Source: Candidatus Aramenus sulfurataquae (lineage in GTDB: Archaea; Thermoproteota; Thermoprotei_A; Sulfolobales; Sulfolobaceae). Taken from it: a DNA stretch of 64,000 nt. The position numbers were made by a program, and so were the translations under genes. Of the stretch, positions 3,271 to 48,686 are shown piece by piece. The stretch is taken from NCBI GenBank assembly GCA_000565255.1, contig ASRH01000001.1, positions 186,001-250,000 on the forward strand. The letters run 5' to 3'. The notes under the pieces are model-generated. The model did not search any database, was not told where the DNA came from, and saw nothing but the letters and a program-made list of their open reading frames with translations. Numbering within the stretch: position 1 is the stretch's first letter; the number at the start of each line of letters is the position of its first letter.

Positions 3271-4407
3271 ATGTCCGAATTACCTAAGGAAGTAGAAGAG
3301 TATAGAGCTAAGGTAAGGGATTACGCACAAAAAGTGGTGAGGGACTACGCGAAGCAAATGGACGAAACCAACGACGGTGGTGACAAGATAGTAAAGGACT
3401 TTGGCGAAATGGGTCTCCTCGGTATGAAGGTTCCCGTAAAGTATGGGGGCCTAGGGTTAGGAGAACTGGCGTTTGCAGTTGCAACTGAGGAGCTTGGGGC
3501 TGAGAGCGGGGGTGCTTCGCACAGCCTCCACACACAACTGAACGCCATTCAGCTTTTGGTCTCAGTTGGAGGAGACGCTGCAGCAGAGTGGATTGAAAAG
3601 GGAGTAAAAGCTAAGGAGATATACGCAGTTGCTCTTACTGAACCAGCAGCGGGCTCAGACCTAGGTGCGTTGCAAACTACCGCGAAGCCGGACGGAAACG
3701 AGCTCGTACTTAACGGGGAGAAGATCTTCACCAGTGCCGCCTCCTTCTCTACAAAGATGGTTGTGCTAGCTAGAACCAGCGGCAACCCAGGGGATAGACA
3801 AGGAATATCGTTACTTTTAGTGGACTCCAAGACTCCCGGAGTAGAGGTCAAAAAGCTGGACTTGATGGGTATCAGAGGGGCAGGTGTATCTTACGTTAAA
3901 TTCAACAACGTTAGAATAAGTAAGGACTCCATTATCGGCAAGGAAGGAGATGCCTTTAGAGGAGCAATAAAGGCTCTCATGGTCAGCAGAAACGGCTACG
4001 CTGGAATAGCAGTTGGAATAGCTAGGGGAGCAGTTGAGGAGGCAATTAACAGGGCAACAGCGAGGAAACAGTTCGGAAAGGCGCTAATAGACCAGGAGTG
4101 GATAGCGTTTAACTTGGCAGACGCATACATAAAAGTGGAGGCAGCGAGGTTGCTAACTTGGAGAGCAGCCAACTTATTTGACAAGGGAGTTGAGGCGTTA
4201 ACGGAGGCCTCGATGGCAAAGTACTACGCAGCTGTGACTGCCGCCGAGGTCACTAGGACTGCACTTCATATATTTGGCGGTCACGGGCTTAACAGGGGAT
4301 CAAAAGTTGAGAGGCTTTACAGAGACGCAAAGATAATGGAGATTGCCGAGGGTACGAACGAAATGCAGCTAATGGCAGTATCAAGGACTTTCCAGCCTAA
4401 GAAATAA
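3271..4407 (+). CDS. Acyl-CoA dehydrogenase
   Basis: A 378-residue flavoprotein of the usual family length. The FAD-contacting segment ALTEPAAGSDL is near residue 118, and the C-terminal YRDAKIMEIAEGTNE carries the Glu-Gly-Thr motif whose glutamate acts as catalytic base in many family members. It would oxidise an acyl-CoA to the 2-enoyl-CoA, passing electrons to ETF. The chain length cannot be read from the sequence. The gene has its own TATA box and ends with a 27-bp overlap with the convergent permease gene. Confidence 0.92.
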   Translation: MSELPKEVEEYRAKVRDYAQKVVRDYAKQMDETNDGGDKIVKDFGEMGLLGMKVPVKYGGLGLGELAFAVATEELGAESGGASHSLHTQLNAIQLLVSVGGDAAAEWIEKGVKAKEIYAVALTEPAAGSDLGALQTTAKPDGNELVLNGEKIFTSAASFSTKMVVLARTSGNPGDRQGISLLLVDSKTPGVEVKKLDLMGIRGAGVSYVKFNNVRISKDSIIGKEGDAFRGAIKALMVSRNGYAGIAVGIARGAVEEAINRATARKQFGKALIDQEWIAFNLADAYIKVEAARLLTWRAANLFDKGVEALTEASMAKYYAAVTAAEVTRTALHIFGGHGLNRGSKVERLYRDAKIMEIAEGTNEMQLMAVSRTFQPKK

Positions 4408-5610
4408 GTAGATAACCAAGAAGTTCTCCAAAAGGACGGGCAAAGAATACTTTATAAACTCGAAGAAACCAAACCCTTTTCCTCCCCTACTTTCTGAGGC
4501 TTCAGAAATTATTACGTTACTTGCTGCTCCTATCAACGTCAAATTCCCAGCTATCGTACTACCTGCCGCTAACGCGAGCCAGTCTATTGCCGAAGTAGCG
4601 TTGTAAGAGTACATTATAGGTATGTAGATAGCTACCATGGGCACGTTGCTGAGTATTTGACTCAATGCTACGCTAACCAACATAATAATTAGAACGCTAG
4701 AGGGTGGTGGCAACGCCATGGAGATAGCGCTCAAGACGCCCCCGTTATCTAGTCCCGCTGTAAAGAGGAATAGCCCCACGAAGAAGACTATTACAGTCCA
4801 ATCCATTCTCCTTACAATCTCCCTCCTCGGCTTCACTATTAGCAAAAGCAATGACGAAGTTATCAGGGAGCCAAGCAATATGTCCACCTTCAGAAAGCTC
4901 AAGGCAAAGAACAAGACCACAGTTATGGCTAGAAGAACTAAGGCTACTACCGCGGTAGCCTTGTCCTCAATTTTTACCTCTTGTAGTTGTATTTCCGATT
5001 CAGGATTAGCTAATGACTTCTTAAACATTAAAAAGGTTATATATGCAGTAGCCAGCAGGTTAACCGCGGTAGGAATACCCAAGTAGGCTAGGAATAGCAC
5101 GAAGGGCTGTGCCAAGTTCCCTTCAAGAGCTATCAACAAGTTCTGAGGGTTGCCAGTGGGCAAAAGCACGCTCCCTACTGTTACTCCGAAAGCCAGGGAA
5201 TAAAGAAGAGGCTTCTCGTCGATCCGCATTTGCTTACTCACTTCTAACATGACGGGAGTCCAACTAGACGAGATCCCGTCGTTTGTGACAAAATTTGAAA
5301 GAACGCCGGAGAAAACAACTACCGCCATTACTATTCTCTTTGGTGTCTTGAACTTCTTGACGATATAATACGCTAAGTACTTCAAGAATCCCGATACCTC
5401 AAGAGCCGAGGCGAACACGAAAATGGTAACCAGAAACAGTATGACGTCTAGGTTTACGCTCTTCAAGGCAAGGCCTACTGGAATCACACCAGCTGCCACC
5501 ATCAGTACCCCTCCGAAGAACATGGAGGACCACGGTGGTATCTTCGTAATACCTCTAGTCGCTATCAAGCCGTAAGTTAAAAGCGCTATTATCAACGCTA
5601 TGTAATTCAC
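4381..5610 (-). CDS. ArsB/NhaD-superfamily ion permease
   Basis: A 409-residue, strongly hydrophobic protein with roughly ten to eleven membrane segments. Two pseudo-symmetric signature loops are visible: LLPTGNPQNLLIA in the first half and NLTLIGAASNVIISEA in the second. Such GNPQNL and GAASNV loops are typical of the ion transporter superfamily holding ArsB arsenite pumps, NhaD Na+/H+ antiporters and SLC13-like carriers. The substrate cannot be decided. No arsR or arsenate reductase gene is adjacent, which weakens an arsenic-resistance reading. It is divergent from the MFS gene. Confidence 0.8.
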   Translation of the reverse strand: MNYIALIIALLTYGLIATRGITKIPPWSSMFFGGVLMVAAGVIPVGLALKSVNLDVILFLVTIFVFASALEVSGFLKYLAYYIVKKFKTPKRIVMAVVVFSGVLSNFVTNDGISSSWTPVMLEVSKQMRIDEKPLLYSLAFGVTVGSVLLPTGNPQNLLIALEGNLAQPFVLFLAYLGIPTAVNLLATAYITFLMFKKSLANPESEIQLQEVKIEDKATAVVALVLLAITVVLFFALSFLKVDILLGSLITSSLLLLIVKPRREIVRRMDWTVIVFFVGLFLFTAGLDNGGVLSAISMALPPPSSVLIIMLVSVALSQILSNVPMVAIYIPIMYSYNATSAIDWLALAAGSTIAGNLTLIGAASNVIISEASESRGGKGFGFFEFIKYSLPVLLENFLVIYLFLRLESP

Positions 5611-5667
5611 AAAATGGTCTTGGGGTATTCGCTTTAAAGATTATCCTAGTTTTAGGGATACAAATGA

Positions 5668-6777
5668 ATGAAGATCTTCGTAGGCCAAGCCCTAGTCACT
5701 ACAGTAGTAACAGAGTTGACGTTACTTTACCCAGTGGAGATTTACAACGAGACAAAGTCCGTGTTTTTATTGGGGATAGTCTCAATGCTATTCAACGCCA
5801 CCAACGCCTTAGGCTCCTACGTCTGGGGAAACGTGATAGACAGTGTAAGACGTAGGAAAGAGTTCTTTATACTTTTGCCTCTATCTATTATACCCTGCGT
5901 CTTCCTATTATCCTCCGGGTCGATAGTCCTCGGCTTCCTCGGCTACTCCCTTCTAGGATTTATTTACGCCATAGACTCACCCTTGTACTCTATCCTATTG
6001 CTAGAGAACTTCACGTTTGAGCAGTTGCCCAAGGTGAACATTAGGCTTTCGCAGTTCACGCTTGCAGGAAACATAACTGGAAGCCTCTTGGCTATAGTAA
6101 GATTGCCTCCAACTTACATTATCTCAATGCTTGTGGCATCGCTGGTAAGCAACGCAATATTTCTAAGGAGAGTGGCAGGCTCAAGTAATAGGGATAAGAA
6201 GGAGGAGAAAAGGGAGATTAGGAATAGGTTTCAAGCCATCCTGTCCTTCTTTACCTTCAACTTCGCCGCTGAGATTTTTTACACAGTCTATGTTCCGTTC
6301 AACTACGCCATGGGAAATCCAGAATACCTCATTTTCGTTTCCTACACTCTGCTATACATCTTGGACGAGTTCCTCTACTACGTATCCTCTAGAATTATTG
6401 AAAACAGAGAGGTGTTCTTCATTTACCTAGTCACTTTCACGAGGGCAATTCTGTCCCTTTCAGCGTCCTTGGTCGTTGCCTCTAAGCTTAGGCTGGGACC
6501 TCTTAGCGTGCCCATATTTCTCTCCTTTGGCTCGATATACCCTATATTCAGTTCTTCCTTCTTCTCCATTATGTTCAGGAACTTAAAGAAAAATAGGGGA
6601 ACTATAATAGGAGTATTCAACGCCGTAGAGGACGTTGCTAACATAATGGGGAGTCTAGTTGCTGGAATAATAGGGGGAACTTTGGCCAACGCCTATGCAG
6701 TAGTGCTTTACTCATTTCTACTGTCCTCTTTCCTTTTCGCTGATTACGTAAGGAGAGCCCCTGTGCCTTCTAGCTAA
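5668..6777 (+). CDS. Major facilitator superfamily transporter
   Basis: The 369-residue protein has about ten to twelve hydrophobic helices. A short basic cytoplasmic loop, DSVRRRKEF, follows the second helix where the MFS A motif sits, and a charged linker (RDKKEEKREIRN) near residue 175 separates the two halves. Substrate unknown. Two ATGs are close together at 5664 and 5668; only the latter opens the long frame. Its last 60 bp overlap the convergent thioesterase gene. Confidence 0.75.
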   Translation: MKIFVGQALVTTVVTELTLLYPVEIYNETKSVFLLGIVSMLFNATNALGSYVWGNVIDSVRRRKEFFILLPLSIIPCVFLLSSGSIVLGFLGYSLLGFIYAIDSPLYSILLLENFTFEQLPKVNIRLSQFTLAGNITGSLLAIVRLPPTYIISMLVASLVSNAIFLRRVAGSSNRDKKEEKREIRNRFQAILSFFTFNFAAEIFYTVYVPFNYAMGNPEYLIFVSYTLLYILDEFLYYVSSRIIENREVFFIYLVTFTRAILSLSASLVVASKLRLGPLSVPIFLSFGSIYPIFSSSFFSIMFRNLKKNRGTIIGVFNAVEDVANIMGSLVAGIIGGTLANAYAVVLYSFLLSSFLFADYVRRAPVPSS

Positions 6778-7659
6778 GGCACTTTCAAACATCTTTTTCT
6801 CGTACTCGTTTTTAGGATAATATGGCGGAAACTCCTTTGGTCTGCCGTCGCCACCTATTCTTACGTAGTTGAAAAACGCCGTGGTTACTATCCTGCTAGT
6901 GCCGTCCTTGGGATTTCTCGTCTTTACCGTTATCAAAACCTCGATGGAAGTCTTGCCCACATACGACAATCCAGCAGTCATTTCAACTACGTCTCCTAGC
7001 TTAATCGGGGAAAGGAACGCAGTGTCAGAGACGGAAACCGTTACCACTGTGTCGCTGCCGTCCTTAAAGCCCTTGTAGTTTATAAGACTTAGTCCTAACA
7101 TTCCCCCTAGGTCATCCATGAGCTTAACTATCTTTCCAGCCGAGATTAGCCTTCCGTCATAGGTCATCTCAGGAGTCACGTATATTACATTGTGCAGTTT
7201 AACTGTGAGCTTCTCCGTAGGATCTTCTAGGGGCACGCTCTCCTTGAGCTTCTTTAGTCTGAGCTCCCTCCTCTTTCTTGCCTCCTCAACTATTAAACGC
7301 TCCTCATCCTTAACGGGAATAATCTTTTCCCCAACAGCCAATGGCCTAACGTTGTCGTCTACCTTTACGTATACTCCAGTGGCGGTAACTATTGGCTCGT
7401 CTCCCCTAAACGCCTTCATCTCTACTTCCATTGACGAGTTGCCTATGTAGTCTACTTGGGACACAATCCTTATTACGTCACCTAGATATATCGGCTTCTT
7501 GAACACCACGTTGTCTAAAGAAGCTAAAACTACTGGTCCCTTAGCAACTTTAATTGAGGACAACATTCCAGTGTCTATTAACATCTTCAGCATGTCTCCG
7601 CCGTGGAGCCTCCCCATGTAGTTGCATTGTTCATAATGCACTAGGTTTACTGTCTCCAC
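6718..7659 (-). CDS. Tandem hotdog-domain acyl-CoA thioesterase
   Basis: A 313-residue protein with two hotdog folds in tandem, as in the ACOT7/BFIT type acyl-CoA hydrolases. The first repeat has GRLHGGDMLKMLIDTG near residue 16. The second repeat has DGRLISAGKIVKLMDDLGG, where the HGG is changed, so the halves are probably not equivalent. The start is GTG at 7659. It follows the 125-codon gene by only 7 bp and appears to be the last gene of the NurA-HerA operon, or is read through from it. It would release free fatty acid from acyl-CoA. Confidence 0.85.
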   Translation of the reverse strand: METVNLVHYEQCNYMGRLHGGDMLKMLIDTGMLSSIKVAKGPVVLASLDNVVFKKPIYLGDVIRIVSQVDYIGNSSMEVEMKAFRGDEPIVTATGVYVKVDDNVRPLAVGEKIIPVKDEERLIVEEARKRRELRLKKLKESVPLEDPTEKLTVKLHNVIYVTPEMTYDGRLISAGKIVKLMDDLGGMLGLSLINYKGFKDGSDTVVTVSVSDTAFLSPIKLGDVVEMTAGLSYVGKTSIEVLITVKTRNPKDGTSRIVTTAFFNYVRIGGDGRPKEFPPYYPKNEYEKKMFESALARRHRGSPYVISEKERGQ

Positions 7660-7666
7660 TACGGTT

Positions 7667-8044
7667 TCACTGATTAACGACTTCCTTCACCTCGTTTAGC
7701 TTTGCGGACAAGCTTGGGTACTTTTTAACGTATTCCTCTAGGAGCTTTACTAGTTCTACCAATATATCCTTCCACGAACTGATTATCTTATCCATCACGT
7801 CTTTCGGGACTGAGGTGACTCTCTTCTCGCTTGCCGACATGAAGGGCAAGTACTCGTCTTGAGATATGGAAACTACGAACATACCCCTTCTGTCAATGAC
7901 GTACTCGTGGTTTCCCTTCTTGAGGACAGTTATGGAGACGTCGTCTGAGGGCGGGAAGTAGTTAGTGAGAGAGGACACGAACTTCTCCACCGACTCCTTG
8001 TCCTTTTTCTCCAACATCTTGCTTAGAGTTTCCTTCAAGCTCAT
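7667..8044 (-). CDS. Uncharacterised 125-residue protein of the NurA-HerA 1 operon
   Basis: I do not recognise a family. The N-terminal 25 residues and C-terminal 45 residues look helical and charged, flanking a beta-rich centre (DVSITVLKKG, EYVIDRRGMFVVSIS). There is no cysteine, signal peptide or membrane segment. It starts 10 bp after the herA-like stop and ends 7 bp before the thioesterase start, so it is cotranscribed with both. A role as an accessory subunit of the NurA-HerA pair is only a guess from position. Confidence 0.7.
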   Translation of the reverse strand: MSLKETLSKMLEKKDKESVEKFVSSLTNYFPPSDDVSITVLKKGNHEYVIDRRGMFVVSISQDEYLPFMSASEKRVTSVPKDVMDKIISSWKDILVELVKLLEEYVKKYPSLSAKLNEVKEVVNQ

Positions 8045-8054
8045 CTTCTCACCT

Positions 8055-9872
8055 TCACGTCCTCGAGAGGTCGTAATGACCTACTGGAGGAGGTACAGGG
8101 ACGCGAATTTTTACCCTACCTTCTCTTAACCAAGGAGAGATAATAAACGCGACTCCATTCCCTTCCCAGCTCAGAACCTTGGCTTCATTCCTTGAAAGTC
8201 CAAACAACTCAGCGATTTCTTGCCTTATTCTGAAGATAACCTTGGTGTTTGAAAGTTGTACAACTATGTCGTTTAGGTCGTTTGGGTTGTGGGTGGCGAA
8301 GATAAAACCTATTTTCCTCCTCCTTCCTAACCTCATCATTAACGAGATCTTGCTCGCTACTCTCCTGACGTAGTAGTTATCCTCTTCTCCACCCCTCATC
8401 GAGGGAAAGAACTTGTGGGCCTCGTCTATAACTATCAAATACCTGCCCTTGGCCTCCCCTTTCCTCAGCCTAGCCTCCCTTAAAGCAAATATCCTGTCAA
8501 GAATATAGTAGACGAAGATCTTCTGGGCTAGGTCATCCACTTCGCTATTATACAAGTCAAATACTACTATTTTCGCCCCTTTGTCCACGACTTTCCTTAT
8601 ACTACTCCTCTTCAGTTTGAGGTCGAACATCCCCGTTTCGAGGAGCAAGTAAAGTCCCCTTAGGATGTTTTCCCTGGTGCTCCTGTGCAATTTCATCTTC
8701 TCAAACACGTTGTCGTCCAACGCGTCCACGAACTCCCTTAACGTGTTAAGCTTGGCTAGCTCGCTCTTGGTAGTGATGATCTTCAGAAAGTGAGACCCTT
8801 GCTCGCTGAAGTAAGGGTTCAATTTGTACAAGATTCTCTTGACCGAACTGAACTTGAAAAAGAACGGGTGGACTGTTATTTTGGAACTCCAAGAACTACT
8901 CGAGATATTTATTGTATTGTCTACAATAGAGGTGTATAATTTTACTCCTTTTCTCTCCAAGTATGTTACCAACGGTTTTACGTAGAGATCATAGTACGTG
9001 CTCGTTATCTTATTTATAGAGTAATCTCCGCTAAGGTACTTCCTCAACCACCCCCTAGTCACTGGATAGACTACGTCCAGCTCTATTCCACTTAACTTGC
9101 CGTAGAGTTCCTCAAACGCCCTCACTCCTTCCATCACTTTCTTACTAGTAAAGTCAGGGGGCAGGAACATGTGATAGTAGTCTCCTGTGGTATCGAATAT
9201 GAATGCCTTGCTGCCTTCCTCGTCTAGCTTGTAAAGGCCTGACAACAAGTCCTTTATAAAAGACGTCTTTCCAGCCCCTGTTGTGCCCAGGATGAGGAAG
9301 TGGTAATTGAGTTCGTCTAGGCTCGTGCTCACCTTTACCCTTTCGCCTTCGATATCGAGGAACCCCAGCTTTAAACTCCCTGCGTTTATTCCTAGGGCCC
9401 TCTCAATCACCTCTGCCCTTGGTATTATGACCGGTGACTGGGGCTCAACTATTACGTCTGCGGGTTGAATTTCAGACGAAGAGAGGACGTCTAGCTTAGT
9501 GAGCATCTCGCATTTTATTACCACGTTGTTTATTAGAGTGCCAGGATTTTCCTCGTCCACTGAGGAAACTACTGGGGAGCCATCAAAGAGGTAGTTAGTG
9601 ACGTCGCTTCTCTCGTAACCTATTACCTTTAATAGGATGAAGTAGAGCGTCCTTATGTCTACTACTCCCAAGAAGATGCCTATCTTTCCCAGGAAGCTGT
9701 ACTTATAGTACACCTCTGGACTTACGACTACGTTTACTACGAACTGGTTCTCCTCCACCTTGTTAGGTATGTTTCGGGCTACGCTCCCTATAACGTCGCC
9801 TAATGTTACAGCAAGCGCTCTTGCCTTTTCCATCCTGTCCTTTATGCTGTTATAGAGCTCATCACTGCTCAT
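8055..9872 (-). CDS. HerA-family hexameric DNA translocase (pair 1)
   Basis: A 605-residue FtsK/HerA-superfamily ATPase. Walker A is GTTGAGKT at residues 196-203, and a Walker B of the form YLIVIDEAHKFFPS lies near residue 475, followed by the motif FIFATHNPNDL. The 190 residues before the P-loop are beta-rich and match the position of the HerA HAS-barrel. HerA hexamers pump dsDNA into the bound NurA nuclease. Its start overlaps the nurA stop by 4 bp, as expected for a stoichiometric complex. No mre11 or rad50 lies next to it, so it is probably not the canonical end-resection HerA. Confidence 0.85.
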   Translation of the reverse strand: MSSDELYNSIKDRMEKARALAVTLGDVIGSVARNIPNKVEENQFVVNVVVSPEVYYKYSFLGKIGIFLGVVDIRTLYFILLKVIGYERSDVTNYLFDGSPVVSSVDEENPGTLINNVVIKCEMLTKLDVLSSSEIQPADVIVEPQSPVIIPRAEVIERALGINAGSLKLGFLDIEGERVKVSTSLDELNYHFLILGTTGAGKTSFIKDLLSGLYKLDEEGSKAFIFDTTGDYYHMFLPPDFTSKKVMEGVRAFEELYGKLSGIELDVVYPVTRGWLRKYLSGDYSINKITSTYYDLYVKPLVTYLERKGVKLYTSIVDNTINISSSSWSSKITVHPFFFKFSSVKRILYKLNPYFSEQGSHFLKIITTKSELAKLNTLREFVDALDDNVFEKMKLHRSTRENILRGLYLLLETGMFDLKLKRSSIRKVVDKGAKIVVFDLYNSEVDDLAQKIFVYYILDRIFALREARLRKGEAKGRYLIVIDEAHKFFPSMRGGEEDNYYVRRVASKISLMMRLGRRRKIGFIFATHNPNDLNDIVVQLSNTKVIFRIRQEIAELFGLSRNEAKVLSWEGNGVAFIISPWLREGRVKIRVPVPPPVGHYDLSRT

Positions 9873-10981
9873 GTTCCCAGCTCCTCTATCCTACTGTAGT
9901 AACTGGACTGTAGCCCTACCTTCTGTAAACCGCTTATCACCAGCTTGTATAGGCCCTGTGACACCCTCTTTGCTACGGCGTCTGCTAGAGCGAGGAGGTA
10001 AGGTACCCCTTCCCTCGTTATCTTTATCGCCAGAAGGTTTCTAACCACGTCTTCAGAGTTGACCAAGCTCTCTACCCTAAGGATTGAGAACTTGGGTACA
10101 TAAGGATTAAACGGGATAACCAAGTAATTCACAAATATCCGAGTGTCTTTCTCCTCGCTCATGAAGGGGCCTATTACAGTAGGTGAGTAAGGTATGTTCT
10201 CGTTAAACCTGGTTAAGCTTAAGAGAAAGGCCTCGTCCGAGACAAACGACTTTGGGTCTACCTTGTATCTCTGTATAAAGAGATCTCGGTACTCGCCATT
10301 TAACGAGTTAACCAGGTATTGGGACTTGTCTATCCTTTTGACCACACCTACAAAGTTCTGGTCTAACGCCTTCCTTCTCTCCTCAATTATCTTGTCCTTA
10401 ACTTTGGCGCTTAAGTACAAGTAAGAAGGAAACAAAGGGCCGTCAATTATTACTGCCCCTTTCCCCTTGAGGAAGCTTAAAGCTCTCGTCTCCAGTAAAG
10501 CTCGTAACTCCGTCTCCACTTGCTCTACCCCCCTTATGGAGCTAAAGGGCCTCCCATCTAGCGAGACAAACGAAACGTAGTTGGAGGCGTAGATGTAGGG
10601 GTCAAGCCTAGATCGTTCCACCGTTGAAGAGGCTACAGCTATGAACGGCTCTTGTAGTGCCAGACCTCCTTTGCCATCCAGGGAGGGATAAACGCCGTAG
10701 ATCCCCCTCGTTATGGAGGCCACGGCCAAGCTAGCCATGCTTATTGAGCCCTTACCGGAAACGAAGCTCCTACTACTTCCGTCTAAAGCCAATACCTCGT
10801 CCCATGACCTCTTTGGTACCTCCTCCCTCACCAGTTCCTGTGGTTTTACAAGTGGTATCGCCACAGTATTTGGGCTTGGACTAACATAATCCTCGCTTAT
10901 GGAGGAGGAGTTAAGGTAACTGGAAATGAAGTTTATAACGTCATACCTAAGTACCTCGTAAATCCCGTGAATATGGGCCAT
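9869..10981 (-). CDS. NurA-domain nuclease (pair 1)
   Basis: A 370-residue protein with the NurA motif ALDGSSRSF, whose Asp67 would be a metal ligand, and a second acidic segment GAVIIDGPLF near residue 197. NurA is a dimeric RNase H-fold nuclease that works with HerA in DNA-end resection. The arrangement nurA-herA with a 4-bp overlap supports the pairing. The first 60 residues are less conserved-looking. Transcription probably starts from the AT-rich block just upstream. Whether this pair serves repair or defence cannot be told here. Confidence 0.82.
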   Translation of the reverse strand: MAHIHGIYEVLRYDVINFISSYLNSSSISEDYVSPSPNTVAIPLVKPQELVREEVPKRSWDEVLALDGSSRSFVSGKGSISMASLAVASITRGIYGVYPSLDGKGGLALQEPFIAVASSTVERSRLDPYIYASNYVSFVSLDGRPFSSIRGVEQVETELRALLETRALSFLKGKGAVIIDGPLFPSYLYLSAKVKDKIIEERRKALDQNFVGVVKRIDKSQYLVNSLNGEYRDLFIQRYKVDPKSFVSDEAFLLSLTRFNENIPYSPTVIGPFMSEEKDTRIFVNYLVIPFNPYVPKFSILRVESLVNSEDVVRNLLAIKITREGVPYLLALADAVAKRVSQGLYKLVISGLQKVGLQSSYYSRIEELGT

Positions 10982-10998
10982 TATTATCTATGTCATTA

Positions 10999-11020
10999 TT
11001 TATAGAAATATTTAAATATA
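10999..11020 (-). promoter_or_regulatory. Promoter region of NurA-HerA operon 1
   Basis: A 22-bp run of A and T with a single G, containing TTTATAG and ATATTTAAATATA, sits 20-40 bp upstream of the nurA ATG at 10981. It fits a TATA element with BRE-like purines on the minus strand. The rest of the 80-bp gap shows nothing else. Confidence 0.45.
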
Positions 11021-11061
11021 GCGTAATACTATCGGTTTTTCGAGCCTAAAGTTTCGGAAAG

Positions 11062-12357
11062 TCAATCCTTCATTAGTTGCCTTACTGCAATAATAACCGG
11101 GTCCCATACCTCAGAGATTGCAGGCAGGTAGCCCATGTCCGTGAAGAACATGTCCTCTACCGTGAATCCCTTCATCACTTGGGCTGCTATCATGTCAATC
11201 CTTCCGAGCACTTCTTCCCCTCCTATTATCTGTCCTCCTAGGATTCTCTTAGTACCCTCTTCCGCTACAAGCTTTACGTAAATCTCCTTAGCCCCTGGAT
11301 AGTACCTGGCCCTCGTTTTCGTCTTTATCATTGCGGAAAAGGTCTTTATGCCAATGCTCTTTGCCTCGCTTTCTAGGATGCCAGTCTTCGCTATAAACAA
11401 GTCCTTGTACTTCGTGATCATTGTGCCAACACTTCCTGGAAATTCCATTTCCTTACCAGCTATGTTGCTCCCTGCCACGTATCCCATCTTATTGGCAACT
11501 GGGGCAAAGGGCATGTAAAACTCCTTCCCAGTTACTATGTTCTTAGTCTCCACTGCGTCCCCAACTGCATAGACGCCCTTAACGTTAGTCTCCATGTGGG
11601 AATCAGTCCATATAGCGCCAGTCCTTCCCAGTTTAACTTGACCTCTTACTAGGTCAATGTTGGGCTCAACTCCTATAGCTATGATGGTCCCATCTACTTC
11701 GTATTTTCCTTTATCCGTTACTACAACAGCTCCATCCTCCTCAACTCTTTCAAAGGTCTCGCCTAAGTGGAGCTCCACGTCTTTGGCCATCCTCTCTGTT
11801 ATTACCTTCCCCATGTCCTCGTCGAGCATTTTGTTGAGAACGTAACCAGACCTATGGAAGAGCATAACCTTGACTCCCCTCTCTACTAGTGCCTCAGCCA
11901 TTTCCACTCCCAATATACCCCCTCCCACTATCGCAACCTTGTTTAAGGACCAGAGTTTTTTCCTAAGTTCCACTGCCTCAGCAGGGTGGTGTACGTAGAA
12001 GACCCTCTTACCTTCTGCCACTTTCTTTGGCCTTGCTCCCAAAGAGATGACGAGGTAATCAAATTCGAACTTGCTACCGTTTGCTTTCACAATCCTAGAG
12101 CTTAAGTCCACTTCCTTAACCTCCACGTTAGTGAGGACATTAATCTTCCTCTTTTCGCGGAAGAAGTCAGGGGTGTACGTCATGAAGAGATTCTCGTCGT
12201 TAAAAAGTCCCTCCACAAAGTACGGTATACCGCAAGGGGCATGACTTACCATCTTAGTCCTCTCAATGACGGTTATTTCCGCGTCTGGTCTTAGCCTCCT
12301 TACCCTAGAAGAAGAGCTCATCCCAGAGGCTCCGCCACCTAAAACTAGGACTTTCAT
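11062..12357 (-). CDS. CoA-disulfide reductase / NADH oxidase-like flavoprotein
   Basis: A 431-residue pyridine nucleotide-disulfide oxidoreductase. FAD binding is shown by LVLGGGASGMSSS at the N-terminus, NAD(P)H binding by VAIVGGGILGVEMAEAL near residue 148, and a second FAD contact by YAVGDAVE near 265. The single redox cysteine, Cys42 in SHAPCGIPY, places it with CoA-disulfide reductases, NADH oxidases and persulfide reductases rather than two-cysteine enzymes. I chose the ATG at 12357; a TTG four codons earlier is possible. It may recycle CoA or reduce polysulfide in this sulfur-metabolising cell. Confidence 0.85.
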   Translation of the reverse strand: MKVLVLGGGASGMSSSSRVRRLRPDAEITVIERTKMVSHAPCGIPYFVEGLFNDENLFMTYTPDFFREKRKINVLTNVEVKEVDLSSRIVKANGSKFEFDYLVISLGARPKKVAEGKRVFYVHHPAEAVELRKKLWSLNKVAIVGGGILGVEMAEALVERGVKVMLFHRSGYVLNKMLDEDMGKVITERMAKDVELHLGETFERVEEDGAVVVTDKGKYEVDGTIIAIGVEPNIDLVRGQVKLGRTGAIWTDSHMETNVKGVYAVGDAVETKNIVTGKEFYMPFAPVANKMGYVAGSNIAGKEMEFPGSVGTMITKYKDLFIAKTGILESEAKSIGIKTFSAMIKTKTRARYYPGAKEIYVKLVAEEGTKRILGGQIIGGEEVLGRIDMIAAQVMKGFTVEDMFFTDMGYLPAISEVWDPVIIAVRQLMKD

Positions 12358-12371
12358 AGGGAATAACAATT

Positions 12372-12384
12372 AATGCTTTATATT
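12372..12384 (+). promoter_or_regulatory. TATA box before the 145-codon gene
   Basis: The element TAATGCTTTATAT is centred about 28 bp before the ATG at 12406, so the mRNA is probably leaderless. It lies in the 48-bp divergent gap shared with the flavoprotein gene, whose own promoter must overlap it. Confidence 0.45.
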
Positions 12385-12405
12385 TAGTTTTTCTCTAAAT
12401 GAACT

Positions 12406-12843
12406 ATGATAGCTAAAAATAGAATGGCAAAACTCTATGAAGAGATAGAGAAAGTGCAAAAGGGTAACTTGAGCATTACGGAACAGGGTATCTTGAACTT
12501 CCTTAAGGATCAAATAAAAATGGAAGAGGACGTGCTATCCCAGTTCGAGAAGAACTACTCAGAGAACAAGTCAAGTGAAGCAATAACCTCCTTCATGACC
12601 CTTGTACAGAGGGCAAACGTAATGTTCTATTACTTGGTGCAACCCACCGTCCTCTCGTCTTTTACCTCGGGCAAAATGGAGGGACTTGTTCAAGAGTTAA
12701 TAGACGCGCTCACTTTTGCTGTTTCAGAAGCAACTATGATGATAAAGTCCATGTCAAAAGGGCTAGGGATAGACAGCTTGACCGTGTCCCTTAACTCTAA
12801 CCCACCATCCATAAGTGTCTCAATGGTGTTCAAGAGTGCTTGA
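12406..12843 (+). CDS. Uncharacterised 145-residue helical protein
   Basis: No family recognised. The protein is mostly alpha-helical, has no cysteine, and closes with a short Ser/Val-rich tail (LTVSLNSNPPSISVSMVF) that looks beta. Some amphipathic stretches could mediate oligomerisation. It has a TATA box at the right distance and overlaps the sugar-phosphate isomerase gene by 8 bp, so the two are one transcript and coupled in translation. A role linked to the isomerase is possible but unsupported by any motif. Confidence 0.75.
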   Translation: MIAKNRMAKLYEEIEKVQKGNLSITEQGILNFLKDQIKMEEDVLSQFEKNYSENKSSEAITSFMTLVQRANVMFYYLVQPTVLSSFTSGKMEGLVQELIDALTFAVSEATMMIKSMSKGLGIDSLTVSLNSNPPSISVSMVFKSA

Positions 12844-13741
12844 GAACTACTTGAAATGGCCCGAGCTGTTTGAGGAAGCAAAGGGAATTGAAGTACCAGA
12901 AGTAAGGGGAGAGAGAGTAGTTTATACAGGGATGGGCGGAAGCTACATTCCCGGGAAAGTAGCAGAAATCCTTGACTTCCCCGTAGACTACGCGTCGGTG
13001 CCAGGAATACCTAGGAGAGTTGACGAAAAGACCGTCGTAATAGCAGTAAGCTACTCTGGGACTACTGGAGAGACAATAGAAGCGGTAAAGATGGCGTTAA
13101 AAAAAGGCTCCAAGGTTATCGTTATCACATCGGGAGGCAACTTGGAGAAACTGGCGAGGGAAAACAACGTCCCCGTGGTTAAAGTTAAGGGACTCTCGCA
13201 GACTAGGTATTCCTTCCCTGTACTATTTACGCCAGTGCTCAAATTACTCTCTTACTTGTCTGGAGCGAAACTAAACCTAGACCTCCTCAAGGAGGGAGTC
13301 GTGCAGGGAAAGGAGAGGATGATGAAACTGGCGGAGGAACTAGCAACCTCTATTAATGACGTTATCCCCGTCTTTTACGCCTCAAAGTACTTTCCTATCG
13401 CCATAAGGTTTAAACAGGAAGTAAATGAGAACGCCAAGTACCCCGCCTTTTACGGGGAAATCCCTGAAGTCAACCACAACGAAATAGAAAGCTACGCTAA
13501 CGGGAAGTACCTCCTCCCCGTTGTAATAGGAAACGAGGACCTAGATAAGGTCACTTCCCAAGTGCTTAACGCTAGGCAAATACAACCTATCTTCAGCGAC
13601 GTTCTGATGAACATCTCGTCCCTGATGTTCCTGGCTGGAGTGATGTCAATAAAGCTGGCAGAGAGAATGGGCGTAAACCCAGAAAAGCTCTCGATTATCC
13701 CTAAGGCAAGGAGTTTAACAAGCAATCTATTTAAGTTGTAG
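12836..13741 (+). CDS. Bifunctional phosphoglucose/phosphomannose isomerase
   Basis: The protein matches the crenarchaeal PGI/PMI family in length (about 300 residues) and motifs: TGMGGSYIPG for the sugar-phosphate site, SYSGTTGETIE for phosphate binding, and PEVNHNEIES with the catalytic His. It interconverts glucose-6-, fructose-6- and mannose-6-phosphate, feeding gluconeogenesis and glycan synthesis. I prefer the GTG at 12836 because it aligns with the start of characterised relatives and overlaps the upstream stop. A GTG at 12815 would add seven residues. Confidence 0.88.
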   Translation: MLENYLKWPELFEEAKGIEVPEVRGERVVYTGMGGSYIPGKVAEILDFPVDYASVPGIPRRVDEKTVVIAVSYSGTTGETIEAVKMALKKGSKVIVITSGGNLEKLARENNVPVVKVKGLSQTRYSFPVLFTPVLKLLSYLSGAKLNLDLLKEGVVQGKERMMKLAEELATSINDVIPVFYASKYFPIAIRFKQEVNENAKYPAFYGEIPEVNHNEIESYANGKYLLPVVIGNEDLDKVTSQVLNARQIQPIFSDVLMNISSLMFLAGVMSIKLAERMGVNPEKLSIIPKARSLTSNLFKL

Positions 13742-13759
13742 AAGCTCTTTTTCCACTAA

Positions 13760-15160
13760 ATGATAAGGATATACAACACCCTTGGGAGGAAGCTAGAGGA
13801 GTTTAAAGCCGACGGAAACACCGTCAGGATGTACGTCTGCGGGCCCACTGTTTACGATTACGTACACATAGGGCATGGCAGGACCTTTGTTGCGTTTGAC
13901 GCGATTTCTCGTTACCTAAGGTTGAGGGGATACAACGTAATAAGGGTACAGAACATCACTGACATCGACGATAAGATCATAAATAAGGCGAACGAAACTG
14001 GGAAGGACTGGAGGGAGATAGTTGAGACCTATTCTAAGGACTACTTAGAAAACCTTAACTCGCTGAAGGTCAAGGTAGATCTCCACCCTAGGGTGACCTC
14101 CCACATCAACGAGATAGTAGACTTTGTCCAAAAGCTAATAGACAAGGGACACGCCTATGCAACGCCGAGCGGAAACGTCTACTTTGACGTAGATACTTAC
14201 CCAGCTTACGGTGAGTTATCAAACACTAGGAAGGAGGAGTGGAACCAAGGCGAGGAATTCCTAAAGGAGAAAAGACATCCTTATGACTTTGCCTTATGGA
14301 AGGCTAGAAAACCGGGGGAACCATATTGGGACTCTCCTTGGGGAAAGGGAAGGCCGGGCTGGCACATAGAGTGCTCTACCATGTCAACTAGGTACTTGGG
14401 TGAGCAGTTTGAGATCCACGGAGGCGGGATGGACTTGATCTTCCCCCATCACGAGAACGAGAGGGCCCAGACAGAATCCTACACAGGAAAGCATTGGGTA
14501 AAGTACTGGGTACACGTGTCATTCTTAACGATAAACAAGACAAAGATGAGTAAGTCGCTGGGCAACATAATACCCCTTAACGAGGCGCTCAAAAAATACG
14601 GCCCGTCAGTTCTACGTTACTGGTACTTATCCTCCCACTATCGGTCCACGGTAGACTACAGCGAGGATGCGCTGGAGCAAAGCAAAACTTCCCTAAATAG
14701 GCTAAAGGACGCCCTATCCATAGTAAGGGATATTCTCAGGGAGGGGCCTAAGAGCTACGCTAAGGACGAGGACGTAAAAGTTCAGAGGCAGATCATATCG
14801 GAGATTGAATATTTCCACGAGGCCATGAGCAACGACTTCGACACGGCCAAAGCGCTGTCCCACGTGCACAACATAGCCTCAATTGTCTTCTTAAAGCTCT
14901 CCAACAGCAGGGACTTTATGGGTGCATCTATAGCGTTGGACGCCTTTAGGCAGTTCAACGAGGTTTTCGCCGTGATGGATGAGGAGTTTGGGGCTATTTA
15001 CGAGAACGTGTCGAGGATAATAGACTCGGTAATAGAAGTCAGGAACTTGTTGAGAGCGAGGAAAATGTACGACCTTTCCGATCAGATAAGGAGCATATTA
15101 GAGAGCAACGGAATAAAGGTGTTGGACAGCAAGGACAAATCTACTTGGAGATTTCAGTAA
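13760..15160 (+). CDS. cysS: Cysteinyl-tRNA synthetase
   Basis: A class I aminoacyl-tRNA synthetase of 466 residues, the normal length. It shows the zinc-binding start [20 protein letters not shown] containing the HIGH motif, WHIECSTMS and [10 protein letters not shown] for the other zinc ligands, and TKMSKSLGN as the KMSKS loop. It charges tRNA-Cys in the cytoplasm. It starts 18 bp after the isomerase stop, in the same direction, so may be cotranscribed. Its last 20 bp overlap the convergent Nudix gene. Confidence 0.96.
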
Positions 15161-15575
15161 TAAACATGGGTGTCCTTTCTCCCTTAAAGTACCTTAGCAA
15201 CATTTCCCTCGTCGTAGGGGAAGTTGCTATCTTTTCTATTTCGTTTCTCGAGAAGAACCGTGCGTCTTCAGCGTCTGAGCTTGGACTAAGCTCGCCACCC
15301 GTAACTTCGCAAACAAAGTCGAGAATCACGTAATGGAAACCTTCCTTTATTAGCTGAACGACAGCCATTAGCTCTGAGACCTTTACCTCAAGCCCGGTCT
15401 CTTCCTTGATCTCCCTCTTTACCGCTTCCTCAAGAGTTTCCCCGAACTCGACTTTCCCTCCAGGGATTGCCCAGAGCCCCTTGTTAGGAGGATGTGCCCT
15501 CTTTACCAAAAGTACTTGTCCTTTGCTGACTACCACTCCACCTACCGCAACCAATGGTCTGGCCTGGGTGCTCAC
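15141..15575 (-). CDS. Nudix hydrolase
   Basis: The Nudix box G-x5-E-x7-REUxEExGU is complete at residues 40-62 ([20 protein letters not shown] and onward). It would hydrolyse a nucleoside diphosphate linked to another moiety, such as ADP-ribose. The open frame reaches back to an ATG at 15680, but that start would overlap the 5' end and TATA box of the divergent gene. I chose GTG at 15575 because the family usually begins just before [10 protein letters not shown]. This start gives 144 residues. Confidence 0.8.
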
Positions 15576-15670
15576 ACAGTCATTGGGTAAAGCGTCGTAA
15601 AATACATTTTGTCTGTAGAACTGATCAAGCTTCTGGATAAAAGTTATTAAATAGCTCTTTACGGTGTTAT

Positions 15671-17029
15671 ATGATGTCATCTCGCAAAGTATTCCTAGCG
15701 TTCATAGCCTTATCCTTATGCTTGGCAACTCTTATAACTGGCGTGCAGTCGTTCTCAATTCCCCAATTCCCCACAACTACAACGCACTATTACAGTACCT
15801 TGAGCTTTCCTAATAACCTCACCTACTATATCGTAGTCTCGAACACAACAAAGGTGACCAGTACTACTACTAGTAGTAGTTCCGCTGTCAACACTTCTAC
15901 ATCCAATGTCTCCTCCTTGCGAGTAGTCAATTACACTTACGTTGCACACTACCAAGTCGTCAAGTATAGCCCTGAGGGAGAACTAACGGTTAACTTAACT
16001 GTGGAAAACACTTCTCAAGTACCTAAGGGGTTTAACTTCACGTTACTGAAGATTGGCTTGCACAACGTTAGCCTTGAAGAGGACCCGCTTAACTTGAATT
16101 ACCCTTACGTGTTTCCCGGATACCTTTTCAATAACACCTATACGCTATCTATACCTTCTACCTCCCTCACGTTAGTGTACGACGGGGTAGCAAACGAGAC
16201 AATCTTAGGCACAAAATACGTGGTAATAAAGTACTTCTTTGGGGACTCCCAAGCTTCCGGCGTTGCCTATATAACGGAAAATGGAACCGTTGCTTACATC
16301 AACACAACCTATAACGGACTTGAAGTTCAATTATTTTTAAAGTCCTCTCAAGGTACCACAACGGTGGATATCCCTAACACCGTGACTCTGCCCAGCTACT
16401 TCCTCAATAGGTCGTATTTATACGCTATTTACGAGTACTCCAACTACTCAGACTCTTTACAGAGCGTAGGAGATGAGGAGATCGTGTACCCATTCGTCTT
16501 CCCTAATGGCATAATTGGAGAGACCGCGTATCAAGTGAACACAGTAAGTGGTTCGCCTTTGGTCAACTTCAACGACTTCACGATTCACATCGGGAATTAC
16601 ACCGGCTTAGAGACCTCCTTTTACCCATCTCTGGCTCAGAAGATAGAGTGGAATTCTGCGAGCCTCACAATGGTAGGCAAAGATAACGTAACCATATTTG
16701 GAGTAAACTATCCCAACGCTTACGTATACGAGAGTAACCAGAGCGTGAATAATAGCACTATAGTTCGCGAGGTTACGTTTAACTCCTCTGGCGTATTAAT
16801 CGATCAAGTCGTTACTGTAGTCCACAACGGATTGAGTACCCCAGAGTTTGAGGCAAAGTACATTGGCAATATATTCTATAATAATAGCGAAACGTATCCG
16901 AATTTCCAGACGTTTTCGGATACTAACCTCCCGTTTAGCGTGGTGTCCCCCTCCACCTCCCTAGCTGTGGCTATAATAATTACGATAGCTATAGCTGCCA
17001 TTTTAGTCCTTTTACACAGAAGAGACTAG
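15671..17029 (+). CDS. Secreted, membrane-anchored glycoprotein of unknown function
   Basis: The protein has a signal peptide (VFLAFIALSLCLATLITGV), a Ser/Thr-rich stretch near residues 58-80, a long beta-rich exterior with many Asn-X-Ser/Thr sequons, and a C-terminal membrane helix (AVAIIITIAIAAILVLL) ending in a basic HRRD stop-transfer. This is the layout of S-layer-associated surface proteins in Sulfolobales. I see no protease or binding motif. A TATA-like TTATTAAATAG at 15645-15655 lies 20 bp before the ATG pair at 15671/15674. Confidence 0.75.
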   Translation: MMSSRKVFLAFIALSLCLATLITGVQSFSIPQFPTTTTHYYSTLSFPNNLTYYIVVSNTTKVTSTTTSSSSAVNTSTSNVSSLRVVNYTYVAHYQVVKYSPEGELTVNLTVENTSQVPKGFNFTLLKIGLHNVSLEEDPLNLNYPYVFPGYLFNNTYTLSIPSTSLTLVYDGVANETILGTKYVVIKYFFGDSQASGVAYITENGTVAYINTTYNGLEVQLFLKSSQGTTTVDIPNTVTLPSYFLNRSYLYAIYEYSNYSDSLQSVGDEEIVYPFVFPNGIIGETAYQVNTVSGSPLVNFNDFTIHIGNYTGLETSFYPSLAQKIEWNSASLTMVGKDNVTIFGVNYPNAYVYESNQSVNNSTIVREVTFNSSGVLIDQVVTVVHNGLSTPEFEAKYIGNIFYNNSETYPNFQTFSDTNLPFSVVSPSTSLAVAIIITIAIAAILVLLHRRD

Positions 17030-17065
17030 CCTCGCTTATACAATTTAAAACGGAAAGAAGTAAAA

Positions 17066-17076
17066 TTTTTTTATGC
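17066..17076 (+). promoter_or_regulatory. TATA box of gdhA
   Basis: A run of TTTTTTTATG centred about 25 bp upstream of the ATG at 17095, preceded by purine-rich GGAAAGAAGTAAAA that can act as BRE. It predicts a leaderless gdhA mRNA. Confidence 0.5.
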
Positions 17077-17094
17077 GGATTCTATGATTAGTTT

Positions 17095-18360
17095 ATGACA
17101 TCCGTCGAAGAAGTTCTAAGTTCGAATCTTTATACACAACAAGTGAAGAAACTCTATAAAATTGGTGGCATATTGAGTTTACACGACGACGAACTGCAGG
17201 CTTTAGCCATACCTGAGCGCGTAATCCAAGTTAAGGTCCAAATACCGGGGGCCGACGGAAAAATTAAGACGTTCATAGGCTGGAGGTCACAGCACAATAG
17301 CGCTCTAGGGCCTTACAAGGGGGGAGTAAGGTACCATCCTAACGTTAGCCAAGATGAAGTGATCGCACTCTCAATGATAATGACGTGGAAGAACTCCCTT
17401 TTACAGCTGCCCTACGGTGGAGGAAAGGCAGGCATAAGGGTTGATCCAAAGTCCCTAACCAGAGCGGAGCTCGAGCTCCTCTCTAGGAACTTCATAGATG
17501 CTATATATAAGTATATAGGAAGCGACATAGATATACCTGCTCCTGACGTTAATACGGACTCTCAGGTGATGTCGTGGTTTATAGACGAGTACATAAAGAT
17601 AACCGGGAAAGTCGACCTGGGAGCTGTGACCGGAAAGCCCGTAGAGCTAGGAGGAATCTCCGTGAGGGAGTACAGCACTGGGCTAGGGCTGGCTCACATA
17701 GCTAAACTAGCTGCGGATAAGTTCTTGGATGGAATTGAAGGCAGGAGCGTAATTATACAGGGGTTCGGAAACCTAGGTTCCTTTGCGGCCAAATACCTTT
17801 CGGAACTTGGAGCTAAGATCGTGGGAATAAGCGACTCCAAAGGAGGGGTTCTCAACTACGATGGTATAGACGTGAACAAGGCATTAGAGGTAAAGCATAG
17901 AACTGGATCCGTGATCAATTACCCAGAGGGTAAAAAGGTAACTAACGACGAGCTACTGGTCAGTCAATGCGACATACTAGTACCAGCTGCCCTAGAGAAC
18001 GTGATACATAAGTACAACGCTCCTAAAATACAAGCTAAGCTGATAGTAGAGGGAGCCAACGGTCCACTAACTGCAGACGCGGACGAGATATTAGCTCACA
18101 GACAGATACCAGTAGTCCCCGACATACTGGCAAACTCTGGAGGAGTAGTCGGAAGTTACGTCGAGTGGGCAAACAACAAGATGGGAGAGATAATAGAGGA
18201 AGAGGAGGCAAAGAAGTTGATCTTAAGTAGGATGGAGAAGGCCTTCAGCGAGATCTACAAGAAATACAACGATCTAGGAGACCAGGACTTACGGACGGCC
18301 GCAATGGTGGTGGCAGTAGAGAGAGTAGTTAAGGCAATGAGAGCTAGGGGAATGATCTGA
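17095..18360 (+). CDS. gdhA: Glutamate dehydrogenase
   Basis: A 421-residue GDH of the hexameric archaeal type. [13 protein letters not shown] carries the catalytic lysine region, [15 protein letters not shown] the active-site aspartate, and [13 protein letters not shown] the dinucleotide-binding fold. It interconverts 2-oxoglutarate plus ammonia and glutamate. It stands alone with its own promoter and is followed 7 bp later by a convergent gene. Confidence 0.96.
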
Positions 18361-46278: not shown

Positions 46279-48030
46279 TCAGCTTCCGTTTAATCCCCTT
46301 CTGAGCTCCTCTAAGTTGTTGTCGGCAGTGAAGAAGACAGGCACGTCATGAGGAAGAGCCGCCTTAAAGCTAACTAAAAGCCATTGCCCCACCTCTAGGT
46401 CAAGGGTCCTGTCCATTAGGGCGTCGTTTATTCCAAAGGTTTCCGCCACTAACTGCCTATCGTAGGGCCTAGGTAGCGTACTAATAAAGTAGGTGTGAAG
46501 TTGTTGTAACACGTTGGTATTTAAGTATGCTAGTCTCTGGGTGCTTATCAAGGCGTGGAGGTGGTACTTCCTGCCGTGCCTCAAGAGCTTCTCAATGGCG
46601 TTACTAGAGGACTCGCTCTTGTCCTTCTGCCTAGTGTCGAAGGGTATGAACTCCTGGGCCTCGTCTATGACGAAGAGCACTGGGGTAGCGGAGTAGAGCC
46701 TTTTCCTCCTACTCATCACCTCGTTGATCAGTGAGGCCACTATTCCCCTAGCCTCATCTATGTTGGGCAATTCGAGGACAAACAGCCTAGATGAAGAAGG
46801 AGACGAGTCAAGGACCTCTATTGCGAGCTTCTCTATGTCGTAGTCCTCTGTCTCTTGAATGGGCTCATTGAAATAAGCCTTCAGCCCCGACAAAAAGGAA
46901 AAGATGGTTGCGCTCTCCTTCAGGCCGCTAGACCTTGCCTCTTCCTCCACTTGGTCCAGTATCTGCGAGATCGAATCGTCTACTATGTCCTCTTTGCTTA
47001 GCTTCTTCTCCCTCATGAAGGAGTCCAACTTCTTCAGGAGTAACCCGAACAGGGGTTTCTGCGCGAAGGAAGTGTACTTATCGCTTATCTGGGCACTCAC
47101 CATGGCTAACAGATCCCCGTAAGTCAAGTACTGGAACTCTTCAGGGGGCACATAGAGGTGCCTCATCTTCGGATAAACGTCGACGGACGCTTGCCTAATC
47201 CTGTCCCTTAGGTCTGCCACCTCCTCAGGTATAACATGAGTTCTCAGGAACCTTCTAGCCCCTTCCTCTGGGGTGAGGGCTAGCCTTTCTGTGGTAACCA
47301 GCCTCGATTCGTGCTTCAGTAGTTGGTCCAACAATAGGACGGCATACTCCATCGAGATGTCCACCACGACGATCTTTACGTCCAAACTGCTCAAAGCCCT
47401 TCTTATCAGCAGAGACGTTAAATTGGACTTACCTGACCCAGTGAACGCGAACACTCCTATGTGGTAATTTATGGCTCTCCTTAGGTCGACTGTCAGTGGG
47501 ATGCCCTCACCTATTATCTCACCTATTTTTACTCCCTTCTCCTCGCAGACGAACTTCTTGAAGACCTCCTGGTTTAACACATGTACTGTAGAAGCAATCA
47601 ATGGAGGCACGTAACCCTTCTTGAACTTTACACCACCGTTAACCTCAAGTAAATAACCTATAGGATAAGCGTGCACTTCAATCCAAGCATTTGGGTCTTC
47701 GCTCCCCCAGTTCTCCTCCACCCTCCTCATCACCTCTTCCCTGATCTCCCTAGGTACTGACTGGTCTAGCTCTAGCATGCCATAGTGCATTGGCAGGAAG
47801 TCCACTACTTCGAGTAGTAAATAGGAGTTCTCCTCCATCGTCTTCACAGCCAAGAGCTTTCCTATGCTAAGCGCCTTCCCTGCTGTGAACGGCATCTCAA
47901 CCAAAAAACTCCTGAAGCTCACGAAACCCCTTCCATCAGCGGTCTGCCTAGTTAGTACCTTTACCTCCCTGAGTCTGCCCCTTATTTCCTCAAAAACGCC
48001 ATCCACTGTTCTTCGCCCTATGCTGTTCAA
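46279..48030 (-). CDS. HerA-family DNA translocase (pair 2)
   Basis: A 583-residue HerA/DUF87 ATPase: N-terminal beta-barrel, Walker A FTGSGKS at 196-202, Walker [15 protein letters not shown] near 470, then [12 protein letters not shown] and an arginine-finger-like [12 protein letters not shown]. It differs strongly from the HerA at 8055 in sequence and barrel. TTG at 48030 is supported by AGGAG five bases upstream; it lies 41 bp inside the nurA-like gene. Expected to form a hexamer driving DNA into its NurA partner. Confidence 0.85.
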
Positions 48031-48679
48031 TTAAACTCCTAAATTCCCTATATTTTAACGTCTTCCCCACGCCCAGCTCTACGGCCCTTTGCATCCTGTT
48101 CCTAAACAGCTTGACTACCTTGTCGGCCACGAAGAGTGGGTAGTTATAGCCCAACGCCTCTGGTATGGGATAGTTGCCACAAACGTAGAGGAGCGAGAGC
48201 ACTTCCTCGGAATTCTTGAAGTTTGTCTCTACCCTGAAGACCCAGCTAACCCTGTTGAGCTTGAAATAGCCTGTGGTCAGTTCCCCTTCCTTTTCCACCA
48301 GGAGCCAAGGGTACTCGTTAAACGTATCGTCAAGCTGTGCCCTTACCTTTGGGTCGAAGTCCTTCACTATCCCTATGGCGCGCTTAGGGACTGAGTACCC
48401 CTTCTCCGCGTCCATGGTCAGCTTCCTGTCCATGAGGACTACTTCAGCGTTAGAGGAATTAGCTAGCTCGTACTCAAGCCTCCGCATAGCTTCATCTCCT
48501 TGCCCCTCAACGAGATCGTCCTTAACGTCGTAAGAAGAGAACTTGAGTCTCTCCCCCTCCAGCGTAAAGTCTACCCTGGCCCCAACGACGTAGGAGAGGA
48601 CCCCCTCCCTCGTGTAAACCTCGTGGAGACTACCGTCCACGGCAGCTAGAGATAATTTAAAAGAGTGAACGGAGTTCAT
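47990..48679 (-). CDS. NurA-like nuclease (pair 2)
   Basis: A 229-residue protein with the NurA catalytic start [12 protein letters not shown] (Asp15), second acidic site [11 protein letters not shown] and the C-terminal motif [19 protein letters not shown] found in NurA dimers. It is shorter than the NurA at 9869. The frame continues upstream, but the ATG at 48679 leaves 7 bp to the divergent gene and puts the DGS motif near the N-terminus, where NurA has it. Coupled to the herA-like gene by overlap. Confidence 0.8.
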
Positions 48680-48686
48680 ATTCAAT

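Follow-up and report, generated by a model that had tools for sequence, protein, structure and literature searches.

In a stretch of 64,000 nucleotides of the Candidatus Aramenus sulfurataquae genome (the window), genes for a NurA-family nuclease and a HerA-family ATPase are followed on the same strand by a 125-codon gene and a thioesterase gene (Table 1). The locus raises the question of what a NurA-HerA pair does away from mre11 and rad50, and whether the small gene behind it encodes a part of the same machine. A preliminary description had suggested that the run may be a specialised repair or anti-plasmid module with a new third component. The tightly packed layout that it gave was borne out by the ORF coordinates and the junction sequences, with a 4-bp overlap between nurA1 and herA1 and gaps of 10 bp between herA1 and the small gene and 7 bp between the small gene and the thioesterase gene. 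Gene order was taken from ORF calls with the longest start; thus, ORF overlaps given here are upper bounds. Judging from its base composition, the gap preceding nurA1 is probably the promoter of the four-gene run. The thioesterase also matched the profile of the acyl-CoA thioester hydrolase YciA, although below the cut-off. The 125-codon frame was considered to be a real gene because homologous open frames were present in all 31 Sulfolobaceae genomes and because a comparison with the sister species indicated purifying selection (dN 0.029, dS 0.199). The same comparison indicated purifying selection on the tested part of HerA1 (dN 0.022, dS 0.275) and on the thioesterase (dN 0.013, dS 0.204).

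Table 1. Features of the nurA1-herA1 run and its upstream neighbour, with positions counted from the first nucleotide of the window.
Feature	Position	Strand	Description
FAD/NAD disulphide-reductase-type gene	11062..12369	-	PF07992, 169 bits; upstream neighbour of nurA1, in the same position in most relatives
Gap 5' of nurA1	10982..11061	-	80 bp, strongly A+T-rich (TATATTTAAATAT)
nurA1	9869..10981	-	NurA-family nuclease of 370 aa, paralogous to the canonical NurA; PF09376, 75.1 bits (cut-off 21)
herA1	8055..9872	-	HerA-family hexameric-type ATPase, 605 aa; PF01935 (central domain), 68.3 bits (cut-off 23.2)
125-residue small gene	7667..8044	-	125 codons; order-wide family without a named domain
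Thioesterase gene	6718..7659	-	Acyl-CoA thioesterase of the double hot-dog type, 313 aa; PF03061 matched over its cut-off in two stretches (76.9 bits); terminal gene of the run

A search of the genome for a second, canonical cluster identified one on contig C3, where nurA lies together with rad50, mre11 and the canonical herA. HerA (838.5 bits, equivalog cut-off 800) and Mre11 (570.5 bits, cut-off 500) exceeded their thresholds, whereas Rad50, which has the zinc hook (859.1 bits, cut-off 1000), and NurA (388.2 bits, cut-off 400) were slightly under the strict equivalog thresholds, yet unmistakable. HerA1 reached 42.3 bits against the canonical HerA equivalog (NF040937, cut-off 800). The absence of mre11 and rad50 remarked on previously therefore holds for the neighbourhood of the run, which is linked to neither gene, but not for the genome. 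Since the canonical cluster is on another contig, the window pair is a paralogue, which supports the earlier suggestion of a specialised copy. This genome gave six NurA-domain matches, which represent five loci because two of the matches are halves of one gene. Each of the 31 Sulfolobaceae genomes had 2 to 7 NurA matches, and multiple loci are the rule in the family.

Some of the other pairs have arrangements of their own, described here with our labels for genomes (G), loci (L), contigs (C) and families of the order (f). Another pair at 46279-48817 of the window, in which nurA (47990-48817) overlaps herA (46279-48030), is a paralogue distinct from nurA1-herA1; it is also found in G005 (L125) and has relatives in family f15 (L123, L128). 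On contig C6 of the same genome (G000), a run of herA (541 aa), a gene for a 1017-aa protein, a gene for a 223-aa probable coiled-coil protein and nurA (351 aa) was observed (L045:6829-13205), and a related arrangement occurs in G017 (L115). This run resembles the herA-mre11-rad50-nurA layout, but the large protein is unrelated and had no Pfam or PADLOC match. On contig C2 (L036:6483-9432), nurA and herA of a further type (C2-type) are convergent with their 3' ends overlapping by 20 bp, in contrast to the usual co-directional arrangement; the convergent order is repeated in G005 (L116). A C2-type pair in G044 of family f5 (L126:3323-11898) lies near cas3- and cas5-like genes, which is an archaeal CRISPR neighbourhood outside Pyrobaculum.

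Both products of the window pair have kept their catalytic residues. The acidic active-site residues D67, E164 and D180 of NurA were invariant among 18 aligned NurAs, including those of all five loci of the genome, and the Walker A (GTTGAGKTS) and Walker B (IDEAH) motifs of HerA1 were retained in 14 orthologues sharing 53-60% identity with the window protein. In an AlphaFold2 model of HerA1 made from five sequences, pLDDT was below 50 across residues 1-190, where a NurA-docking N-terminal barrel would be expected; strands were predicted there but not placed. A HerA1 profile gave a single strong match in every one of the 31 Sulfolobaceae genomes (829-1092 bits); with a looser threshold, applied to 11 genomes, the second-best HerA scored at most 122 bits. 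Beyond the family, the comparison covered a sample of genomes from other families of the order, none of which passed E 1e-100. In a maximum-likelihood tree, HerA1 was monophyletic (100/99 support), separate from canonical HerA and nested in a broader group of crenarchaeal HerAs that are linked to NurA; the row own_C6 in this tree is distant, with a long branch and an unsure placement. The surroundings are conserved in the family as well, with housekeeping genes upstream of nurA1 (the CoA-disulphide-reductase-type gene, an isomerase-like gene and CysRS) and the thioesterase and transporters downstream, and nurA1 accompanies herA1 even after the relocation of the pair in G006. These patterns suggested that nurA1-herA1 was most likely inherited vertically and is core to the Sulfolobaceae examined. 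As synteny extends over the entire block, the 31 genomes represent approximately one evolutionary observation.

On balance, we favour the explanation that nurA1-herA1 encodes a core, second NurA-HerA DNA-end-processing machine of the Sulfolobaceae and is followed by a passenger gene. Family membership suggests that HerA1 and NurA1 form an active complex, and its cellular role is inferred as well. If the pair works like the archaeal complexes of known structure, six HerA1 subunits would form a ring and pass double-stranded DNA through it to a NurA1 dimer, which would trim the DNA delivered to it. Such processing of DNA ends might operate in a setting without the need of co-transcribed Mre11-Rad50, and the small gene and the thioesterase gene would be genes of other function downstream in the nurA1-herA1 transcription unit.

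The small gene had been described as unique, which proved to be wrong. In addition to the 31 Sulfolobaceae genomes, homologues were found in families f5, f6 and f8 of the order, where the HerA1 search found nothing. Comparison of profiles between the most distant set and the Sulfolobaceae set supported their homology, with a probability of 96.7 (E 4.5e-10). A scan of genome contigs with a narrower alignment of the family yielded five loci, of which one, in a gammaproteobacterial record, was a false match. Scans of the family against Pfam, NCBIfam, PADLOC and PHROG returned nothing convincing. Six members had a marginal PHROG match (best 0.0011), for which a phage search gave no backing. The AlphaFold2 model of the 125-residue protein (pLDDT 84.6, pTM 0.75) has two helices, then a sheet of four strands and finally three further helices. 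When this model was compared with PDB folds, no clear relative was found; the best hit, a PUR repeat with a Z-score of 3.0 over 40 residues, was tied with unrelated folds, and such a weak or missing match is not proof of a new fold. A PDB sequence-profile match to a designed helical repeat protein (3.7e-5) covered helical residues only and was discarded.

Linkage between the small gene and herA in relatives, which the preliminary description had asked for, was observed. The small gene comes immediately after herA1, in the same orientation, in 29 of the 31 Sulfolobaceae genomes, with gaps mostly of -32 to +25 bp, and directly precedes the thioesterase gene in 28. However, since the block is syntenic, the adjacency to herA1 in most genomes is a single inherited state rather than many independent observations. 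The exceptions are few. In G006, nurA1-herA1 (L113) lies approximately 120 kb from the small gene, which still adjoins the thioesterase gene (L056). In G016, a transposase-like remnant stretch intervenes between herA1 and the small gene (L058:11357-13134). The locus lacks the thioesterase gene in G002 (L059; genome 79% complete), G008 and G016, and the latter two have a gene for a metallo-beta-lactamase-fold hydrolase in its place. The proposal of a new third component was not sustained, given that the family predates the range of HerA1 and that the two genes are far apart in G006. As the family is older and lives without HerA1 elsewhere, the small gene is probably a neighbour of the machine and not a new part of it. 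We therefore consider the 125-residue protein to be probably a member of an independent, older family that came to be co-transcribed with the pair by chance. The fixed gene order within one family suggests a complex, but the wider comparison gives no support to it.

Two other readings of the small protein were weighed against that of a passenger. The one that survives better, although we consider it doubtful, is that the protein has a role in the metabolism of acyl-CoA or CoA-thioesters, for instance by partnering the thioesterase, with HerA1-NurA1 merely upstream. In most genomes, the longest ORF of the small gene overlaps that of the thioesterase by 14-41 bp, and the pairing of the two in G006 also agrees with this function. 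Neighbourhoods in family f6 hint at CoA-thioester metabolism: the small homologue adjoins an acyl-CoA dehydrogenase gene at seven loci (L063, L069, L070, L071, L073, L075 and L076), and in some f6 genomes it is near HMG-CoA synthase-like, thiolase and HMG-CoA reductase genes. However, the acyl-CoA dehydrogenase genes are mostly convergent with the small gene and hence not co-transcribed with it. Homologues in f5 and f8 have other neighbours (in f5, often an adenylate-kinase-like gene), the thioesterase homologues of f5 and f6 do not adjoin the small gene, and the loci in G002, G008 and G016 retain the small gene without a thioesterase.

The second reading is that the small protein belongs to HerA1-NurA1 as a genuine third subunit or regulates it, having been recruited from the older family in the ancestor of Sulfolobaceae. 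This could account for the close, same-strand adjacency to herA1 and for its persistence in G002 and G008 after the loss or replacement of the thioesterase gene. Nevertheless, we regard it as unlikely in view of the separation in G006, the occurrence of the family without HerA1 in three other families and the divergence in G002, where the small protein is truncated (112 aa) and only 24% identical to the window protein, compared with 54% for HerA1. Distance correlations with the small protein over 10 genomes also failed to single out HerA1 (0.70, against 0.85 for NurA1 and 0.72 for the thioesterase) and had no discriminating value. The more specific proposal that such a dedicated subunit, recruited in the same ancestor, targets this second machine to a specific DNA substrate appears quite unlikely. 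If the small protein does have a partner within the run, HerA1 and the thioesterase are roughly equal candidates.

For the pair itself, the preferred reading of a second DNA-end-processing machine was set against DNA exchange and defence. HerA1-NurA1 might process DNA for the Ced DNA-exchange pathway, as NurA-HerA has been hypothesised to have a general part in producing the strand that is transferred (PMC9905601); however, no ced genes were recognised nearby, and this role seems very unlikely. HerA1 was rejected as CedB (23.6 bits, cut-off 700) and as CedD (40.9 bits, cut-off 600). A module for defence against phages or plasmids, made up of a HerA pump and a nuclease, as had been considered in the preliminary description, is highly improbable: HerA1 (1.1e-44) and NurA1 (2.6e-16) do match PADLOC HerA and NurA profiles labelled 'Type III coevolved', and there is a distant CRISPR link in the wider HerA set, through the C2-type pair of G044 beside cas3 and cas5 and the CRISPR-linked nurA-csm6-herA of Pyrobaculum (PMC3396285), but the window pair is universal, single-copy and syntenic among housekeeping genes in the family, neither patchy nor mobile, and HerA1 branches away from the C2-type clade and scored 34.9 bits against the anti-phage HerA equivalog NF042943 (cut-off 800). 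HerA1-NurA1 had no match in phage and plasmid collections, and the idea of a mobile or phage-borne pair was rejected. Among the ten neighbouring genes (window 4381-18360), no cas genes were recognised, and none matched a defence profile except for a NUDIX-like gene (15141-15680), which matched the PADLOC candidate profile PDC-S07 at 2.3e-21 and probably encodes a housekeeping hydrolase.

Genetic and biochemical work on Sulfolobus NurA-HerA has concentrated on the copy adjoining mre11 and rad50, and our literature searches found no studies on the nurA1-herA1 paralogue specifically. That the second pair was never lost in the sampled Sulfolobaceae implies a separate task in genome maintenance, and this bears on how knock-outs of the canonical genes are read. 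Gene-deletion systems are available in model species in which nurA1-herA1 could be tested.

One of the closest known counterparts is the canonical Mre11-Rad50-HerA-NurA end-resection system of Sulfolobus (PMC4351679). Both loci encode a NurA nuclease and a HerA ATPase together with their catalytic motifs kept, whereas the window run has no mre11 or rad50 and its HerA1, far below the equivalog cut-off, forms a separate branch. Three or more NurA-HerA pairs per genome have been reported in Pyrobaculum (PMC3396285), and the paralogue pairs of Pyrobaculum and other Thermoproteales are likewise several co-inherited, vertically inherited pairs in one crenarchaeal genome. One of those pairs is tied to CRISPR arrays (PMC3396285), whereas in the window nurA1 and herA1 overlap with no csm6 between them and no cas gene recognised beside them, and HerA1 forms a clade found in Sulfolobaceae only. 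The C2-type pair on contig C2 (L036) is the nearest paralogue of the window pair in the genome and belongs to the same larger HerA clade, but its genes are convergent rather than co-directional, it has no small gene, and its relatives extend to other families, one of them beside cas genes. HerA-nuclease anti-phage complexes (e.g. PMC11291478) share with the window pair a HerA-type ATPase and a nuclease partner; in the window, the partner is a NurA-family nuclease, and the gene set is core and syntenic instead of patchy.
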